Shown piece after piece: positions 16,470-26,896 of a stretch of DNA of 26,896 nucleotides. Location: IMG/VR virus record IMGVR_UViG_3300007734_000531, positions 1 to 26,896 of that record. One strand, 5' to 3'. The position numbers and the translations under genes are program-made. The first letter of the stretch is position 1. Every line of letters starts with the position of its first letter. The notes under the pieces were generated by a model. The model saw only the letters and a list, made by a program, of their open reading frames with translations. It was not told the DNA's origin and made no database searches. Origin of the DNA: a virus.

Positions 16470-16655
16470 AGCCCTGACGCCTAGGCAACCATCTTTCTGG
16501 GTGACAAAAGCTTTTGCTACCATCCCTGCACGTTTAGCACCGGATTCTATTGCATAAATAATAGGTGAAGGCTTTAAGGTGGGGACAAAGAAACTATCCC
16601 CAACACTCATAGCTTCAAACGGAAATATCCATTCAGGCTCTTTATCTAGACTCAC
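16455..16655 (-). CDS. Small conserved phage protein of unknown function
   Basis: A 66-residue protein with GTG start at 16655, placed inside the last codons of the primase-helicase (14-base overlap) behind AAAGGA. The core MSVGDSFFVPTLKPSP followed by a helix and the ending DGCLGVRAWRIK is a pattern I recognise from many phages, where it is usually hypothetical and found among DNA-metabolism genes. It has no cysteines forming a zinc site and no membrane segment. It is the last gene of the minus block; its TAA abuts the TAG of the plus-strand giant gene with no base between them. Confidence 0.7.
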   Translation of the reverse strand: MSLDKEPEWIFPFEAMSVGDSFFVPTLKPSPIIYAIESGAKRAGMVAKAFVTQKDGCLGVRAWRIK

Positions 16656-19494
16656 TATCTAATCCTTTTAATAAAGCTTCAGGAAGCGATGCTAGATTAA
16701 CTTTGTATACACTTGTAGCTGCCTTACCAAAGTCTTTCCAACCTGCGTTCATACGCTTTTTAACATCTTTACCTGCATCTATTTGAATACCAGACTCTTT
16801 CATTTGGAATAAGAATTCCTTACGACTGACTGACATTTCACCTAGATATTTATCAAACTCTGTCTTAGATATCCACATCATATGTTCATCGTTTTCTACT
16901 CGGATGACAAAAGCAGTCCGAGGTTCCATGGTAATCTTATTATCTTTAAATGCTAAGATGCCAGTTTGGTTCTTATTAATATAATCTGATAGTACTGATT
17001 CATAATCAACTGCGTTGACTTTAACTACATTGTCCTTAATAGCAATCATTTCAGTTACAATCTTTTTATAAATTCTATCTAAGTTAAACTCTGTAATACC
17101 GTTAGCATTAGTAATCTCACCTGCAACCATAGATGCAGCCACTAAGTTTTGATAGAATCGATATGCCGTATCATCGCCAAAGTCTTTAGCAAACTTAGCA
17201 CACCACTTATCTATCATCTTACCTATCTCTAATTCACCTACTTTATAAAGAGCCTTGATAAACTCTGGTCCTGCCCATCCATGATTGAATCTAAATGAAT
17301 CAAATATCTCACGACCAAGGGTTGCATCGTCTCTAAATACATCAGGTTTTCTTACTGATAATTCAATAAGTCTAGCTACTTCACCGTTAGGATCTTTCTT
17401 TAGTGTTGTTAACTTGTCATATAAAGAATGATTTGATGTAAAGATTGCAATCAATGAAGCTGACATCTCGTGCTCACGTTCTGCATTTACAGAGGCTTGC
17501 ATTCTGATCTTAGATTTACCCTGTGAAATCTTATGAATCAATTGAGATAAAGTTTTAGGTAATATATTACCCACCTCATCGAGGCCAAATGGAATATTAT
17601 GTAGACCTAAGTATCTACCTGTCATACCATTTTCTGTTGCGTCTAACACAGATAGATCTTTTGGATTACCCCATACACTTAGTGCTGAATATAAAGCACC
17701 TGTTTTAGCTGCACCTGATTCACCTGTTAAAGATATTGTTACACCTGATGTTGATGTGTATTCCATCAAAGCGGAACCAAACCCTGCTAACATTGTAAAT
17801 GCATGTAGTTCTAAACTTGGTAAATTAAGTTTATTAGCAGCTAGTTTCCAATCTTCGTATTTACCTGCTGGGGCTAAGTGTTTAGCTATGCCTCGGCATA
17901 ATGGTGAAGTGGGAGATGATACTTCTTTAAAGTCTCTTGTATATTCTGTACTACCAATCACAAACGATTCTCTGTTTGGTGTCCAACCCATTTGCATTCG
18001 CATAATTTCTGCGGGGGATTTATTCATTAAGTATTGTCCCCATTTAATAATATAGTTCATAAGATATCCTACCTCCTTATTTCCGGGGTTAAATAAAACG
18101 CCATTACTTGCAATGACTTCCTTAAACTTCTCGATTGCATACACATGCTTAATAGGTAACAAGAACTCTCGTTCAGGGTCATTCGGTAGCATGGCTTTCA
18201 TGAGCAGACATTCTCCATCTGCAACACTAAAGATTCGTTTTACTGGGTAGATATCATATAGTGAAACTATGATAGGATCTTTGGGGATCGGTACTCCATT
18301 TTCATCGTATTCATGCGGGGGTAAATAATAGATACCTCCGTTTTTACCGTAGACAAAAGGTTGTAATTCTTGTGGTAACCCATTGAGCTTAGTTGTAATC
18401 TTTGTAGCTTGGTTAATTACTTCTGTTTTAGTTTCTAGTACCGTCTCGCTGACAGGTTGTGATAATTGTAGTTCTTTACCTATCGCTAACGGGTTAGTAA
18501 TTTTGCCTCTAAACGGACATCCTTCGCAACCGCCCGGATTGACATTGTTGAATGTATCGCAAGAGTGTGGTTTATCTTGTGTAGCTTGGGCTTTCCTTAT
18601 TGTCGCTTCTCGGTTATAACCTGGATGTTCTTCTGACATCATGTGGATCGCTGTATCACGATCAGAACAATGTTGTGCGATAGATAACCCAGAATACCAA
18701 AGAGGCTCAGGTAAAGTCTTTGCATTCTCTAGAATAAACTTGATTTGGTTACAGCCGGTACCTTGTAAAGACTTAATAGCAATATCAGAAAACTTAGATT
18801 GGAAATTATCCAACTTCATCATTTTTCGTTGATCTTCACTAAGTCCTGTCTTAGGTAGCGCTGCAATTAATTCGTCATGAGATTGTGACACCTCGCCTAA
18901 AAAGTTTTTAAACTGGTCAAATGAGTATACAGGGATATCACTACCCAATAACTTAGTAGGACTTGGTGGATCAGTCTTTTGATTAAATGTATCTGGGCAA
19001 CGGAGAATCCTAGCAAGATCTGCTGTTACTACAGGATCTATGTTAAGACCGTGTGTCAAGCAAAAGTTTTTAAACTTCTCTGCATAAGGTTTCCACTCAG
19101 TTGCAGGCACATCTTTATCAAATAACCAGTACGCGTGAACGCCACCACCTGAATCTATTCTAACTGGAGGTGGTAATTCGTTATCTAAAATAAATTTATC
19201 AATAGCATCAAGGGCGTCTTCTTTAGACTCGTATCCTTTGCCTTCGCCAACATCTAAATCTACAAAGAAAGATTTAACTGCTTTAGCTTCCTCTGCCTTA
19301 CGACTATAACCATTAAATGAACTAAGTGCTACAAAGATATTAGTCTTCGTATTCTTCTTAGATTCAACAAATGATTCTAACTCATCTATGTTTTCTACGA
19401 ATTTGTGCTTAGTGATCTTAGCTATCGGATCGATAGTAGCTACACAATATACGCCTGTAGATGGCAATGCTTTCTTATAAAATTCTTTAATCAT
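16642..19494 (-). CDS. Primase-helicase (archaeo-eukaryotic primase-type domain plus DUF927-like ATPase)
   Basis: A 950-residue replication protein. The N-terminal domain has primase-polymerase motifs: FFVDLDV with D79 and D81 (metal binding), DSGGGVHAYW at 114-123 (the sGGGxH motif with H120) and RILRCPDTFNQK at 162-173. A Cys cluster follows (C312, C323, C326), probably a zinc knuckle for template binding. The C-terminal half has an ATPase with Walker A GESGAAKTG at 591-599, Walker B FGLDE at 636-640 and a sensor Asn in IFTSN near 688; the order resembles DUF927-type helicases. It should synthesise primers and unwind DNA at the fork. Translation probably starts at ATG 19494, coupled to a leader ORF (19491-19523). 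A separate T7-like primase-helicase is not seen. Confidence 0.8.
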   Translation of the reverse strand: MIKEFYKKALPSTGVYCVATIDPIAKITKHKFVENIDELESFVESKKNTKTNIFVALSSFNGYSRKAEEAKAVKSFFVDLDVGEGKGYESKEDALDAIDKFILDNELPPPVRIDSGGGVHAYWLFDKDVPATEWKPYAEKFKNFCLTHGLNIDPVVTADLARILRCPDTFNQKTDPPSPTKLLGSDIPVYSFDQFKNFLGEVSQSHDELIAALPKTGLSEDQRKMMKLDNFQSKFSDIAIKSLQGTGCNQIKFILENAKTLPEPLWYSGLSIAQHCSDRDTAIHMMSEEHPGYNREATIRKAQATQDKPHSCDTFNNVNPGGCEGCPFRGKITNPLAIGKELQLSQPVSETVLETKTEVINQATKITTKLNGLPQELQPFVYGKNGGIYYLPPHEYDENGVPIPKDPIIVSLYDIYPVKRIFSVADGECLLMKAMLPNDPEREFLLPIKHVYAIEKFKEVIASNGVLFNPGNKEVGYLMNYIIKWGQYLMNKSPAEIMRMQMGWTPNRESFVIGSTEYTRDFKEVSSPTSPLCRGIAKHLAPAGKYEDWKLAANKLNLPSLELHAFTMLAGFGSALMEYTSTSGVTISLTGESGAAKTGALYSALSVWGNPKDLSVLDATENGMTGRYLGLHNIPFGLDEVGNILPKTLSQLIHKISQGKSKIRMQASVNAEREHEMSASLIAIFTSNHSLYDKLTTLKKDPNGEVARLIELSVRKPDVFRDDATLGREIFDSFRFNHGWAGPEFIKALYKVGELEIGKMIDKWCAKFAKDFGDDTAYRFYQNLVAASMVAGEITNANGITEFNLDRIYKKIVTEMIAIKDNVVKVNAVDYESVLSDYINKNQTGILAFKDNKITMEPRTAFVIRVENDEHMMWISKTEFDKYLGEMSVSRKEFLFQMKESGIQIDAGKDVKKRMNAGWKDFGKAATSVYKVNLASLPEALLKGLDSESR

Positions 19495-19523
19495 ATGCAG
19501 TGACTTTCTATTTTTTTAGTCAA
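19491..19523 (-). CDS. Possible 10-codon leader ORF coupled to the primase-helicase
   Basis: TTG at 19523-19521 lies five bases downstream of GGAGGAG (19535-19529), the strongest ribosome site I saw in the window. The frame encodes MTKKIESHCI and stops at TGA 19493-19491, which overlaps the primase ATG (ATGA). The ribosome site is 34 bases from the primase ATG, too far to serve it directly, and the bases just before that ATG contain only a weak purine run. A coupled leader is therefore the simplest reading. TTG starts are rare, and the peptide itself need not matter. Confidence 0.35.
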   Translation of the reverse strand: MTKKIESHCI

Positions 19524-19527
19524 CAGT

Positions 19528-19572
19528 ACTCCTCCGCAATAAATTGCGTTTTTTCAAATACCACGGAGGAAT
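19528..19572 (-). promoter_or_regulatory. Ribosome-site-sequestering hairpin in the primase-helicase leader
   Basis: In the minus-strand RNA the bases from 19572 down to 19564 (AUUCCUCCG) can pair with those from 19536 down to 19528 (CGGAGGAGU): nine pairs including one G-U, hiding the GGAGGAG ribosome site. A second hairpin, CGCAA/UUGCG with a UUUA-type loop (19548-19535), uses two of the same bases, so the two folds compete; the second leaves GAGGAG largely free. This looks like a two-state translational switch. What would flip it (a protein, temperature, RNA turnover) cannot be seen. On the plus strand the inner hairpin is followed by six T, but no plus-strand gene ends there. Confidence 0.4.
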
Positions 19573-19590
19573 CTCTATTCTACTACGTTT

Positions 19591-19902
19591 TTATATCTTG
19601 TCGATAACTTTAGATTGAATAAAGTCTTTAGCATCGGTCGACGTTACAGCAGGTAAGATACCCTTGTCAATACCTTTGTTTACCAACTCTATAAATTTAG
19701 TTATCCTTTCATAATTTTTTTCTCTTACGTATTGACCCCTAAACCAACTATGTATAGACATTCTTGATACATTGAAGGCCTCCGCTACGTAGGTGGTAGG
19801 TAGATTCGCTTTTACACAAATCTTACCTAGTTGTACACCTATTCTTGTAGGGTCAGCTTTTTGTAAGTTAATTAAGAATTGTTCACTATAAGGACGTGCC
19901 AT
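19591..19902 (-). CDS. HTH DNA-binding protein
   Basis: A 103-residue protein behind AAGGAG. Residues 30-58 (KANLPTTYVAEAFNVSRMSIHSWFRGQ) form a clear helix-turn-helix of XRE-like type: the first helix after LPT, the turn at FNVS and the recognition helix MSIHSWFRG. The opening MARPYSEQFL and the rest of the layout are a pattern I know from replication regions of other aquatic phages. It may repress or time the minus-strand operon or bind a replication origin; nothing in the sequence decides this. It lies 9 bases after the Cys-rich protein and about 70 bases before the structured primase leader, making it a natural candidate for local control. Confidence 0.7.
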   Translation of the reverse strand: MARPYSEQFLINLQKADPTRIGVQLGKICVKANLPTTYVAEAFNVSRMSIHSWFRGQYVREKNYERITKFIELVNKGIDKGILPAVTSTDAKDFIQSKVIDKI

Positions 19903-19911
19903 ATTAACTCC

Positions 19912-20793
19912 TTATGATTTAGCAGACCATTTGTTGATGATACTACTTACATCAGCTTTAGGTGCCTGCGGTTGTTGAACAGATGATTCTCTTAATACAG
20001 GTTCAGTTACGTCAGCTTGTGGTGCAGCTTGTGTAGGTGCCGGTTGCGCTGGCGCTACGTTAGGAACCACTGGTGTAGCTAACATATCTTCTTCTTCCTT
20101 CTCTTGATAGATAGAAAGCTTCACATAGTTTTGCGCTTCTTCTGAATTAGCTAATTCATTTAGTGCTGGAATTAGATCTAACGGCACAGGTGCGCTTGGT
20201 GCAAATAATAACTTCTGGTATGTAGCAGCTGGGTCAAAATACATCTTAGTTACCGCAGCGTTGTTGTTAATACCACTTGCAGCTAGGTATCTAATATACG
20301 TTTGGAACGGACGACCACCATTAACTTCATCACCAAAACATGACTTAGGTGAGAGAATTAATTGAATAAGTTCTTTAGGTTTATTAGGTGTAACTACTGC
20401 GGTTCTCCATGTAAGCTTACATTGTTGTGCAGCACCTTTGATACTGTGTGGACATTGGTTACATGCCGGAGCTTGTTTGTTCTTGACATCAGCATCAGGT
20501 GTTCTAGCATCACTTGCCCAGCAAATAATCTTAGCTTTTTTACCAGGAGTATAAGTACTATCATATAAAGTTCGGCACGGTGTATGCGCCATCTTTACAA
20601 AGATAATGTCCATTTCACCATTCACTGGCGATGATGCTACCTCGTTACCATTCACAAGCATAGTGAACTTACGACCTTCTGTTGAAATCTTTCTACTATT
20701 AGCCCGACCTGCAACTGCCAATGTATCTTGATTAAGACCATTAGGTGAGGCTAATGAATTTTGTTGCAACTGACTAATTAAATCCATACTCAT
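19912..20793 (-). CDS. Cys-rich phage replication protein, candidate ssDNA-binding protein
   Basis: A 293-residue protein behind AAGGAG. Residues about 40-210 look globular and beta-rich; C91, C111, C114 and C125 (CWASD, CNQCPH, QCKLTW) could hold one zinc ion. Residues 228-280 are a disordered Pro/Ala/Gln linker with acidic patches (QEKEEED), ending in a short amphipathic tail (VSSIINKWSAKS). A folded core, flexible linker and short tail for protein contacts are the layout of ssDNA-binding proteins, and no other SSB is seen in this replication block. The tail is not the acidic type of bacterial SSB or T7 gp2.5, so this is inference only. Genes on both sides are within about 10 bases, showing one operon. 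Confidence 0.5.
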   Translation of the reverse strand: MSMDLISQLQQNSLASPNGLNQDTLAVAGRANSRKISTEGRKFTMLVNGNEVASSPVNGEMDIIFVKMAHTPCRTLYDSTYTPGKKAKIICWASDARTPDADVKNKQAPACNQCPHSIKGAAQQCKLTWRTAVVTPNKPKELIQLILSPKSCFGDEVNGGRPFQTYIRYLAASGINNNAAVTKMYFDPAATYQKLLFAPSAPVPLDLIPALNELANSEEAQNYVKLSIYQEKEEEDMLATPVVPNVAPAQPAPTQAAPQADVTEPVLRESSVQQPQAPKADVSSIINKWSAKS

Positions 20794-23993: not shown

Positions 23994-24087
23994 ACCATTT
24001 CCCCACTAATATAATTATATAAATAGCCCACCAAAACCAATGAGCATCGAATCTATATAAACTAAATGCCACAAGTAATTCTAACAT
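23971..24087 (-). CDS. Small Trp-rich membrane protein, 38 residues
   Basis: ATG 24087 overlaps the TAA of the oxygenase gene upstream (TAATG at 24089-24085). The frame runs 38 codons to TGA 23973-23971, overlapping the next gene start by 23 bases. The peptide has a short helix LELLVAFSL, an aromatic DAHWFWW stretch and one membrane segment (WAIYIIILVG) followed by a basic end (KWYEKNCKE), giving a single-pass inner-membrane topology with the C-terminus probably inside. The coupled start and the lack of another gene in the 93-base gap make it likely to be translated. Function unknown. Confidence 0.55.
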   Translation of the reverse strand: MLELLVAFSLYRFDAHWFWWAIYIIILVGKWYEKNCKE

Positions 24088-24677
24088 TAATTCTTCTTTT
24101 TCTTATCAAAATATACATCCGAATGTTCGCCATTAAATCTTACATAGTGTAAAAATACTTGAGCATATTCGTTACCTTCAAATTTTTCACGCCAATGTTC
24201 TGAAATCATACCAAGATATACAACAGCTTGGCCAGGTTCTAAATCATAAGATACTGTTTCACCATCAGGTTTAGTAAACCAAATTGGCCACTTAGAACCG
24301 TCACTACCTAGATGTAATGTCACACTTACTTCACAAGCGGGGCGGTCTTTATGTTTCTTTAACTCGTCACCATTAGCATATATCCTTGCATAAGAATAAG
24401 TGGGCAACATTAATTCTTGCATAAGCTCATTCATAATAGGAAGTCTTGCTAGTAATAAATGAATAAACCATTTGTAGTCATACATAGCTAATGATAAAGG
24501 GCATTGGGGATCTTTAGAAAATAACTCTGGTGTTTCTACTGATGCCTTTTTAAATTGTTCATAAAAGAATTTAGCTTCGTCAGGGGATATAAAGTTATTA
24601 ACTATTAAATAATTATTTTCTAAAAGTTGTTCTCTTGGGGTCTTTTGAACTTCTTCTACTAATTTTTCTTCTGCCAT
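24087..24677 (-). CDS. 2OG-Fe(II) oxygenase-like protein (first of two)
   Basis: A 196-residue protein behind an AGGAG ribosome site. A helical N-terminal part leads to the double-stranded beta-helix. Its iron ligands appear to be H109 and D111 (KKHKDRP) and H161 (SEHWRE), with YARIYANGDEL before the first and YAQVFLHYV after the last. This is the phage family in which ARIYxxGDxLxxHxDRPxCE is typical. The usual 2-oxoglutarate-binding Arg after the distal His is not plain (R163 or R180 are possible), so cofactor use is less sure than in its neighbour. Substrate unknown: nucleic acid, protein or small molecule are all possible. Confidence 0.7.
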   Translation of the reverse strand: MAEEKLVEEVQKTPREQLLENNYLIVNNFISPDEAKFFYEQFKKASVETPELFSKDPQCPLSLAMYDYKWFIHLLLARLPIMNELMQELMLPTYSYARIYANGDELKKHKDRPACEVSVTLHLGSDGSKWPIWFTKPDGETVSYDLEPGQAVVYLGMISEHWREKFEGNEYAQVFLHYVRFNGEHSDVYFDKKKKN

Positions 24678-24686
24678 AATACTCTC

Positions 24687-25283
24687 CTATTTAAAATACG
24701 GTCCGACTAACCATGTTACTACTGAATATCTAAATCCTTTTGTTATAGGTTCTACGCCATGAAGCATAAATGATGGAAACACAATGATGTCACCTTTTTC
24801 TTGAGGTGGGTATATCCTATCATGTCCGTTTTGAATATAAAATTTACCACCTTCAAAATCATCATTAAGAACTACTATACAAGTAATTTTTCTTGTTTCG
24901 TCTGACACAACATGAAAAGTGTCTACATGAGATTCATACTTACCATCCACGTCATACATTAAAAACTCAGCTTGATTAGAATGCGTGATATGGTATTTCC
25001 AATATTGATGATTTACATTTAAACCTACTGTAGTTAGAGTAGCACCAATACCTGCATGTAAAGGTAAAGGCAACCTCATTACATTTCTTATGTTTAAATT
25101 AATATTCTTTTCAGGGTCACGACCTTGTCCAATAAATGGAAGTTCTTTTTCTACTTCAGGTTTAGAATATTCTTCTATTAATCTTTTACAAAATCCTTCT
25201 GACACAGCTTTCTGCATGACATAACATACATCTAATTCACCTTGAGGTAGCTGTTGATATTCTACTTGTGTATTATCTTCCAT
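24687..25283 (-). CDS. 2OG-Fe(II) oxygenase, prolyl-hydroxylase-like (second of two)
   Basis: A 198-residue protein with an intact active site: H119 and D121 in YESHVDTFH, H175 in PSFMLHGVEP and R185 in KGFRYSVV. This is the HxD...H...R order of PKHD/prolyl 4-hydroxylase-like enzymes. GGKFYIQNGH and KGDIIVFPSF are further family marks. It should hydroxylate a substrate using O2 and 2-oxoglutarate and release succinate and CO2. Aquatic phages often carry these enzymes near replication genes; roles in repair, modification of nucleic acids or of host proteins are suggested but unproven. A TAGGA-type site precedes the ATG, and it lies one base after the HNH gene stop. Confidence 0.85.
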   Translation of the reverse strand: MEDNTQVEYQQLPQGELDVCYVMQKAVSEGFCKRLIEEYSKPEVEKELPFIGQGRDPEKNINLNIRNVMRLPLPLHAGIGATLTTVGLNVNHQYWKYHITHSNQAEFLMYDVDGKYESHVDTFHVVSDETRKITCIVVLNDDFEGGKFYIQNGHDRIYPPQEKGDIIVFPSFMLHGVEPITKGFRYSVVTWLVGPYFK

Positions 25284-25284
25284 T

Positions 25285-25737
25285 TTATTTTCCTACGTAA
25301 GTTTTTAATATCCAATTCGCAAATTTAATAAGTTCTTCCGGTGTTGCATTGTTTTTCATTGTATTAGCTTTATTACTAATCACCATTATATTTCCTTTTA
25401 TGTAGCCTTTTGTATTATCTATCCTGTCTAAAGAAGGCGAATTTACTTTTGTGCTTGTATTTTTATTTCTTATAATTTCAATATCTAATATCGGACACCT
25501 TGAGGGAATAATTATATCTGACACACCTATATTAAATTCAAATTGTTTTTGTTTAGCTCGTTGCTTAGCTCGAAATAATATAGTTTTCTCGTGATTCTTC
25601 TCTCTCCATCTAATTAATTTGGCTATAAATTTGTCTTTATTATTAACATAATATTTTTGGTTATAAGATTTTACTTTTTCCGGATTGTTTAATTTCCATA
25701 GTTTTTCTAATTCTGCTTTTTTATTAGCAGTCTCCAT
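25285..25737 (-). CDS. HNH-type endonuclease, probably free-standing homing enzyme
   Basis: I choose ATG 25737 (150 residues), with GGAG six bases upstream; an earlier GTG (25761) and ATG (25749) are possible. The first 65 residues are very basic helix, likely for DNA contact. The core has CPILDIE (C81), then SLDRIDNTKGYIKGNIMVIS, N125 and MKNNATPEELIKFANWIL. This is a layout known from phage HNH / endonuclease VII-like homing enzymes in which the classical His is replaced by the DRID block. It lies against the end of the DNA polymerase gene, overlapping it by 14 bases, as mobile endonuclease genes often do. It has more A/T than the polymerase, hinting at separate origin. Confidence 0.65.
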   Translation of the reverse strand: METANKKAELEKLWKLNNPEKVKSYNQKYYVNNKDKFIAKLIRWREKNHEKTILFRAKQRAKQKQFEFNIGVSDIIIPSRCPILDIEIIRNKNTSTKVNSPSLDRIDNTKGYIKGNIMVISNKANTMKNNATPEELIKFANWILKTYVGK

Positions 25738-26896
25738 AACTTGCTCCATGATTAGCTTCACACGCTACGGGTAGTCCGGTTGCCCACATAGGAGGAGAGG
25801 ACATAGTGGTTGTTATGAAGGAGAGAGCTTCATCCACTTCTGTCTCAGGAACAACGCAGACTACCGCATCGTGAACAGTAAGCACAGGTCGATACCTCTT
25901 ATTAATTTCTATCATCTGTTCGCCGACAATAATACGAGCTAGTGCTTGTACCACATTTTCGACTACAGATCCGCCCCAAATAGATATCATGCCTCGCCTT
26001 GACTTATATACAAATTTAGATTTAGCTTCTGATACATCCCATGTAAGACCGGGATAGTATATGTATAATCCGTTTGGCAATCTTATGCCTTTTGGTGTCA
26101 CAAGTAAAGCATTATGTGCATCCAAATAATAAGGCTTTTTATCTTTAGGCCAGTTAGCCATGTCCTGTAAGGCTTCATCGCATGTTTTCCATAAATCAAT
26201 GACTTTATTATTTACTTCACGATATACACCTACAAGACGCTTACATTCTTGCTCATCCATAGTAACACCGGCTGATATCTTTAATGTCTGTTGTAGTTTT
26301 GCTGATCCTGTACCATATCCTAATCCTAGAATACAAGTCTTGCCTACGGCACGTTCAGTCTTATCTGTTTTAGTAATTGTACGGTTATAAACTTTAGATG
26401 CAAACTCTGAATAAACATCGCGACCTTCTTCATACCATCTCACGATATCGTTTTGTCCGGCCAACCAAACTAAAACTCTAGCCTCGATCTGAGATGAGTC
26501 GCAGTTAATGACTTGATGTCCTTCAGGCGCTATGACTGCGTTCTTCAACGCTTTCTTTTTCTTATCCCGTGCGGGTAAGTTTTGGAAGTTAACCTTATCT
26601 GATCCTGCCCATCGACCCGTATGAGCACCGTAATATTTAAGTGGGATAGGTAGTTTACCTTTGTTTCGTGCACCAATACTTAAAAATCTTTCAATTCGCG
26701 ATTCTTCTATAGTTGATTTAGTGCCCAACCTAACGCGGCAAAGTTCTTGTATGTAAGGGTCTTCGTGTTCACATAGGTCTAAGAATCCTTGGTCGCCCTT
26801 GGCTAAAGCAAACGTATCTTTGCCCGTCGCGGGACTTACCTTGAGTGGCACAGTAACACCTAGTTCTTGAAGAATCTCAGCAAATTGCTTGTTACT
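25724..26896 (-). CDS. DNA polymerase, family A (partial, C-terminal polymerase domain)
   Basis: The frame runs through the right edge (codons SNKQFAEILQELG continue upstream of GTG 26851), so the N-terminal and any 3'-5' exonuclease part are outside. The polymerase domain is clear: RIERFL...GAHTGRWAGSDKVNFQNLP, motif A VINCDSSQIEARVL, motif B RAVGKTCILGLGYGTG (finger Lys and Tyr) and motif C LTVHDAVV. The usual VHDE is VHDA here; the metal-binding Asp is kept, and the Ala variant occurs in other phage enzymes. It ends with HGASYGDC. Its last bases overlap the HNH gene. It is the replicative polymerase of this phage. Confidence 0.9.
   Translation of the reverse strand, partial: SNKQFAEILQELGVTVPLKVSPATGKDTFALAKGDQGFLDLCEHEDPYIQELCRVRLGTKSTIEESRIERFLSIGARNKGKLPIPLKYYGAHTGRWAGSDKVNFQNLPARDKKKKALKNAVIAPEGHQVINCDSSQIEARVLVWLAGQNDIVRWYEEGRDVYSEFASKVYNRTITKTDKTERAVGKTCILGLGYGTGSAKLQQTLKISAGVTMDEQECKRLVGVYREVNNKVIDLWKTCDEALQDMANWPKDKKPYYLDAHNALLVTPKGIRLPNGLYIYYPGLTWDVSEAKSKFVYKSRRGMISIWGGSVVENVVQALARIIVGEQMIEINKRYRPVLTVHDAVVCVVPETEVDEALSFITTTMSSPPMWATGLPVACEANHGASYGDC

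Follow-up and report, generated by a model that had tools for sequence, protein, structure and literature searches.

A conserved RNA leader, probably a translational operator, upstream of a DUF927 primase-helicase gene in uncultured phages

How the synthesis of a phage replication enzyme might be controlled is a question raised by the gap of 96 nt that separates an HTH-like gene from the primase-helicase gene following it, within a virus record of 26,896 bases, probably a fragment (the window). In the window the structural genes are located on the plus strand up to 16454, and the replication genes on the minus strand. The primase-helicase of 950 aa matched PHROG primase/helicase families, and its C-terminal half matched two solved structures, 8tch (pathogenicity-island protein, 6.9e-9) and 5dgk ('active helicase', 2.6e-7). 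SaPIBov1 Rep is related to Cch, a DUF927 helicase (PMC7581432). In Pfam the HTH-like gene matched HTH_3 only weakly (E 0.12). The gap is the site of a structured leader, and the features of the region are as follows.

19591..19902, minus strand: HTH-like gene, found before the primase gene in nearly every relative tested (phmmer matches at 108 of 109 loci)
19577..19604, minus strand: probable promoter, TCGACA (19604-19599), 16-nt spacer, TAGAAT (19582-19577)
19564..19572, minus strand: 5' arm of stem P1, AUUCCUCCG, the anti-Shine-Dalgarno, about 5 nt past the -10-like box (fold; compensating changes)
19549..19563, minus strand: 5' bulge with the A-tract AAAAAA at its end (A-tract in nearly all leaders)
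19535..19548, minus strand: inner hairpin P2, CGCAA-UUUA-UUGCG, flush with the 3' arm of P1 (arm-swap test, p=5e-5; covariation)
19528..19535, minus strand: 3' arm of P1, the Shine-Dalgarno (SD) GGAGGAG(U) (SD duplex -9.5 kcal/mol; unpaired probability 0.00)
19495..19527, minus strand: conserved block ACTGTTGACTAAAAAAATAGAAAGTCACTGCA before the SD-poor ATG (alignment; sole copy in the window)
19491..19523, minus strand: leader ORF of 10 codons started by TTG, MTKKIESHCI and stop, its TGA overlapping the primase ATG (ATGA)
16642..19494, minus strand: primase-helicase gene (DUF927; SaPI Rep / SCC Cch-like helicase domain; Pfam DUF927 3.3e-21; PDB matches)

An earlier note on this DNA had described a strong SD, GGAGGAG, 34 nt from the primase ATG, masked by an anti-SD sequence upstream. 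Both statements were confirmed. The SD was located at 19535-19529 on the minus strand, with the ATG at 19494, and UUCCUCCG pairs with CGGAGGAG, the MFE fold extending this pairing to 14 pairs (19572-19559 with 19541-19528); in the clade of the window the first bases of the bulge lengthen P1 to this extent. For the 111-nt leader the folding energy was -28.9 kcal/mol, with z=-4.65 relative to dinucleotide shuffles, none of the 200 shuffles being equally good. The TTG-started ORF proposed in the same note is well spaced from this SD, and the overlap of its TGA with the primase ATG also held. The SD of the primase ATG itself, at -1.6, was the second-weakest among 25 window genes checked. Since many window genes carry good SDs, unlike the primase ATG, the host of this phage very probably uses SDs in translation.

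For comparison with related phages, a tblastn-confirmed scan gave 80 viral loci and an independent DNA-pattern scan gave 63 stretches; the two combined yielded 47 distinct leaders, to which one more locus, L150, was added as the 48th. All 48, which come from a large group of uncultured phages, lie directly upstream of the same primase-helicase gene. The order of the elements is constant: a GTAGTANAATA-like box, about 5 nt, the C-rich 5' arm of P1, the bulge (usually ending in A5-A7), P2, the G-rich 3' arm of P1, ACTGTTGACT, an A-rich stretch, usually CTGCA, and the ATG. The 3' arm of P1 is frequently GGCGGG or GGUGGG rather than a classical SD; in most representatives it lies about 5-8 nt before the TTG, where its SD energy is between -5 and -11 kcal/mol, and it is occluded in most of them (median unpaired probability 0.01). 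The primase ATG has SD energies of -0.1 to -4.2 kcal/mol in the representatives, except for L001 at -7.4. A conserved stem pairing the SD, as expected of an SD-sequestering leader, was thus found, P1 being weak in a few lineages (L007, L095, L118 and L139). Rfam gave no match up to E=5 within 19300-20000, and none at gathering score in six relatives; the P1/P2 RNA family is absent from Rfam, and RNA brakes on phage replication proteins are already known.

Covariation in related leaders, proposed in the earlier note as a check, was examined in two ways, after MAFFT with RNAalifold on 23 leaders had given no consensus structure because the arms were misaligned. In the arm-swap test, 13 representatives (12 below 80% identity, plus L150) were compared. 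Native P1 arms paired at -9.2 kcal/mol against -7.4 for swapped arms (p=0.0015 with tight and p=0.006 with wide segments), and native P2 at -6.5 against -3.5 kcal/mol (p=5e-5), while two pairs of control segments gave no signal (p=0.25 and 0.32). A stricter fixed-register test of P1 on the same number of representatives gave p=0.034 for Watson-Crick pairs and p=0.14 for all standard pairs, weaker because the register of P1 shifts by one or two bases from clade to clade. When a covariance model was built from 3 leaders, it recovered 48 of 48, with a single match at each locus and no other match below E=0.6. In its alignment 10 of 12 pairs had changed on both sides (shuffled mean 7.0), and across 46 distinct rows, the relatedness of which makes the shuffle counts overstate significance, 84.1% of cells were paired (70.3% shuffled) with 103 double-change cells (37.5 shuffled). 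The covariation score was 0.422 against 0.191 shuffled, and every slid register scored lower, at most 0.189. For P2, 4 of 5 pairs showed changes on both sides and 94.6% of cells were paired. The arm-swap result is the cleaner evidence, since the covariance-model alignment was fitted to the structure. The earlier note had named stems lacking compensating changes in relatives as a refuting condition; this was put to the test, and the claim of SD occlusion survived, with compensating changes in its favour.

The same note had suggested translational control of the primase through a two-state switch, in which the SD-masking stem alternates with a competing hairpin that frees the SD, perhaps driven by temperature. 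The part concerning SD occlusion stood, on the compensating changes and the occluded G-rich arm, whereas the two-state and temperature parts were not supported. The competing hairpin exists (CGCAA-UUUA-UUGCG, 19548-19535), both stems are conserved, and in the clade of the window the extended 14-bp P1 shares bases with P2, as a switch would have it. When P2 was forced, however, at -14.3 against -23.4 kcal/mol, the SD remained mostly paired within P1 (unpaired probability 0-0.29), because P2 stacks on the outer stem instead of replacing P1. The best fold with an open SD, at -9.7 kcal/mol, lies about 14 above the MFE. In other clades P1 and P2 occur together in the MFE fold, so that the two helices are compatible and conserved together rather than mutually exclusive. 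In silico the SD stayed paired from 10 to 60 C, with none of the opening in the physiological range that an RNA thermometer would show. We therefore regard a two-state switch as very improbable.

The covariation is nearly all Watson-Crick with no G-U excess, and a count of G-U against A-C was uninformative as to the strand; hence covariation separates neither RNA from DNA nor sense from antisense. As the covariation would fit either strand, the conserved element might be an antisense terminator, in which P2 and the complement of the A-tract would bring plus-strand transcripts to an end, the pairing of the SD being secondary. A terminator-like site was called at 19535-19548 on the plus strand (CGCAATAAATTGCG-TTTTTT), and the A-tract stands beside P2 in nearly all leaders. 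The stem is short and AT-rich, however, and P1, one arm of which lies beyond the would-be U-tract, also covaries. The leader is kept in L025, where the A-tract is missing, and in L095, where it is reduced, and to the right of 16454 the window contains no convincing plus-strand gene. An antisense terminator is accordingly considered unlikely.

Alternatively, the hairpins could form in DNA, as a replication origin or a single-strand priming site beside the gene for an initiator helicase. The helicase domain is related to those of SaPI Rep and SCC Cch, a class in which origins can lie beside the genes (PMC7581432), and the Watson-Crick-only covariation is consistent with DNA. However, a search for direct repeats of the iteron type found none at either end of the primase gene, and many close relatives lack the cassette altogether. 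The conserved CTGCA preceding the ATG is a conceivable site of G4-type priming; nothing usable on CTGCAAA as a priming site was found in the literature searched. The layout of the parts (box, 5 nt, stem, SD, 5-8 nt, start codon) corresponds to an mRNA leader, and a DNA-level element appears improbable. Taking this geometry together with the P1 result, we favour sense RNA.

Upstream of P1, the GTAGTANAATA-like box (19586-19576), within which TAGAAT falls, is the probable -10 element of a promoter for the leader; the -35-like hexamer is contained in the 3' end of the HTH-like gene, and the promoter scan scored the pair 10/12. Across the 48 leaders GTAGTANAAT is nearly invariant, the third base of the -10 being free. 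P1 begins about 5 nt past this box; transcription is predicted to start at about 19570. Six relatives carry the exact GTAGTANAATA box at this locus, and one of the six has it at a second place as well; a phage-wide class of such promoters was rejected, as the scan gave this locus and one other exact site only. ACTGTTGACT as a second promoter was also rejected for want of a -10-like site at constant distance.

A structure at the predicted 5' end of the mRNA might serve mainly as a stabilising hairpin, combined with a spaced weak ribosome site, the TTG and the SD being by-products. In agreement with this, the frame of the TTG ORF and the SD consensus drift, and relatives with a short leader have their own AGGA before the ATG. 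Against it, the G-rich arm holds its distance from the start codon, and this codon is TTG in 47 of the 48 leaders (CTG in L025). A mainly stabilising role is thus rather unlikely.

The distance from TTG to ATG is 24-32 nt and all three frames occur; in L095 a change in the length of the A-run is compensated by a second change before the ATG (compare L118). The leader ORF stops within 15 nt of the primase ATG in 40 of 48 leaders, 20 nt inside the primase gene in four and at +38 in one; in the remaining three (L006, L058 and L112) it is fused in frame with the primase. A ribosome loaded at the SD would therefore reach the primase start in nearly all relatives. The stop at or near the main start is as expected of leader-peptide coupling, whereas neither the frame nor the peptide is conserved among the 48 leaders; two of the three frames would bring a ribosome there anyway, so that the overlap of the ORF with the ATG does not by itself point to selection. 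As the TTG is in the primase frame in L006, L058 and L112, the primase protein of these three may begin 8-10 codons before its ATG.

Taken together, the P1/P2 leader is real and conserved, and probably a translational operator. The best reading, which we think is probably correct, is that of a self-contained promoter and 5'-UTR cassette acting in cis, in which masking of the sole good SD represses translation of the primase. Transcription from a promoter within the end of the HTH-like gene would give an mRNA that folds from its first bases into P1, onto which P2 stacks, and in this default fold P1 would hide the leader's only good ribosome-binding site, giving poor loading and little primase. 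Once the structure is melted or its formation prevented, a ribosome could load at the SD and the TTG, translate about ten codons, stop at or near the primase ATG and restart there, or, in a few relatives, read straight into the primase. Use of the TTG and translational coupling to the primase are both predicted. The switch might be an RNA-binding replication protein, either the primase-helicase or a phage SSB, these being the natural candidates; the HTH protein, also proposed in the earlier note, is a further candidate.

This arrangement may be compared with known systems. In T4, proteins that bind leader structures at the ribosome site or close to it control gp43 and gp32, and at the gene 43 (DNA polymerase) operator of T4 and RB69 it is the cognate protein that represses (PMC3014915). 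There, as here, a hairpin lies some tens of nt ahead of where a replication gene starts, with sequence that overlaps the ribosome site; however, no common sequence or loop was noted, and in the primase leader the SD forms part of the stem and serves a leader ORF begun by TTG. The T4 gene 32 leader, a pseudoknot with an A+U-rich tract (PMC3014915), likewise stacks two helices, after which an A-rich stretch covers the start region, but P1 and P2 are nested and no pseudoknot was found. In several replicons, including SGI1 S004-repA, R1 RepA and ColIb-P9 repZ, the initiator gene is coupled to a short leader ORF, which lies upstream and overlaps the start of the replication gene, and a stem masks a ribosome site (PMC7826253). 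There it is the rep SD that the stem masks, and translating the leader opens the stem, whereas here the SD of the leader is masked, the main ATG is SD-poor, and no antisense RNA came to light. The primase leader thus unites traits of the T4 operators and of the leader-ORF replicons, matching neither. In the literature searched, no leader control of DUF927 primase-helicases was found, and the leader offers a testable RNA control element, supported by covariation, for such an enzyme. It is possible, and we suggest it tentatively, that it represents a new class of autoregulatory RNA in phages, in which the SaPI-Rep-like primase-helicase (or SSB) binds P1/P2 on a removable promoter-operator cassette lost or gained several times in one clade; if so, free replication protein would shut off its own translation through the leader.

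The junction between the HTH-like and primase genes takes three forms among the relatives. In 38 called loci, and in L150, it holds the structured leader; in 21 the two genes adjoin or overlap directly, the TGA of the HTH gene in several of them overlapping an ATGA; and in 46 an intrinsic terminator stands a short way ahead of a primase ATG poor in SD. One gene junction is thus built in three interchangeable ways. On a quick tree of 100 proteins the leader is confined to one clade, in which it alternates with the direct form, and its label requires a minimum of 6 changes. Leader and box occur together and are missing together, and in loci lacking them the HTH stop adjoins or overlaps the primase ATG; as the direct form is without both box and hairpin, the leader behaves as one removable unit.

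In more distant relatives with the terminator form (L065-L080 and L158-L219), a sense-strand intrinsic terminator ends roughly 12-20 nt before the SD-poor primase ATG, often followed by a conserved tail, GTCTCTGCG or ACTCTG. The T6-GTCTCTGCGA tail was also found after terminators in unrelated phage and prophage contigs (L223, L225, L228 and many others), in which an upstream GCAGAGA could pair with TCTCTGC. An intermediate-looking leader occurs in L057 (2890-3000), with a GTAATACAGT box, a CCCCCA/TGGGGG stem and an inner palindrome; because T6 comes next, it may be a leader of this kind that became a terminator, or a terminator that became a leader. The L057 primase as sole query matched only itself and a near copy.

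Elsewhere in the window, a 2OG-Fe(II) oxygenase gene (PF13640, 3.3e-14) is located at 24687-25283 on the minus strand, and its neighbour at 24087-24677 is similar by eye, with no Pfam match. A 158-aa ORF at 25285-25761 on the minus strand, which begins within the 3' end of the DNA polymerase A gene, gave no Pfam match and resembles by eye an HNH-type endonuclease.
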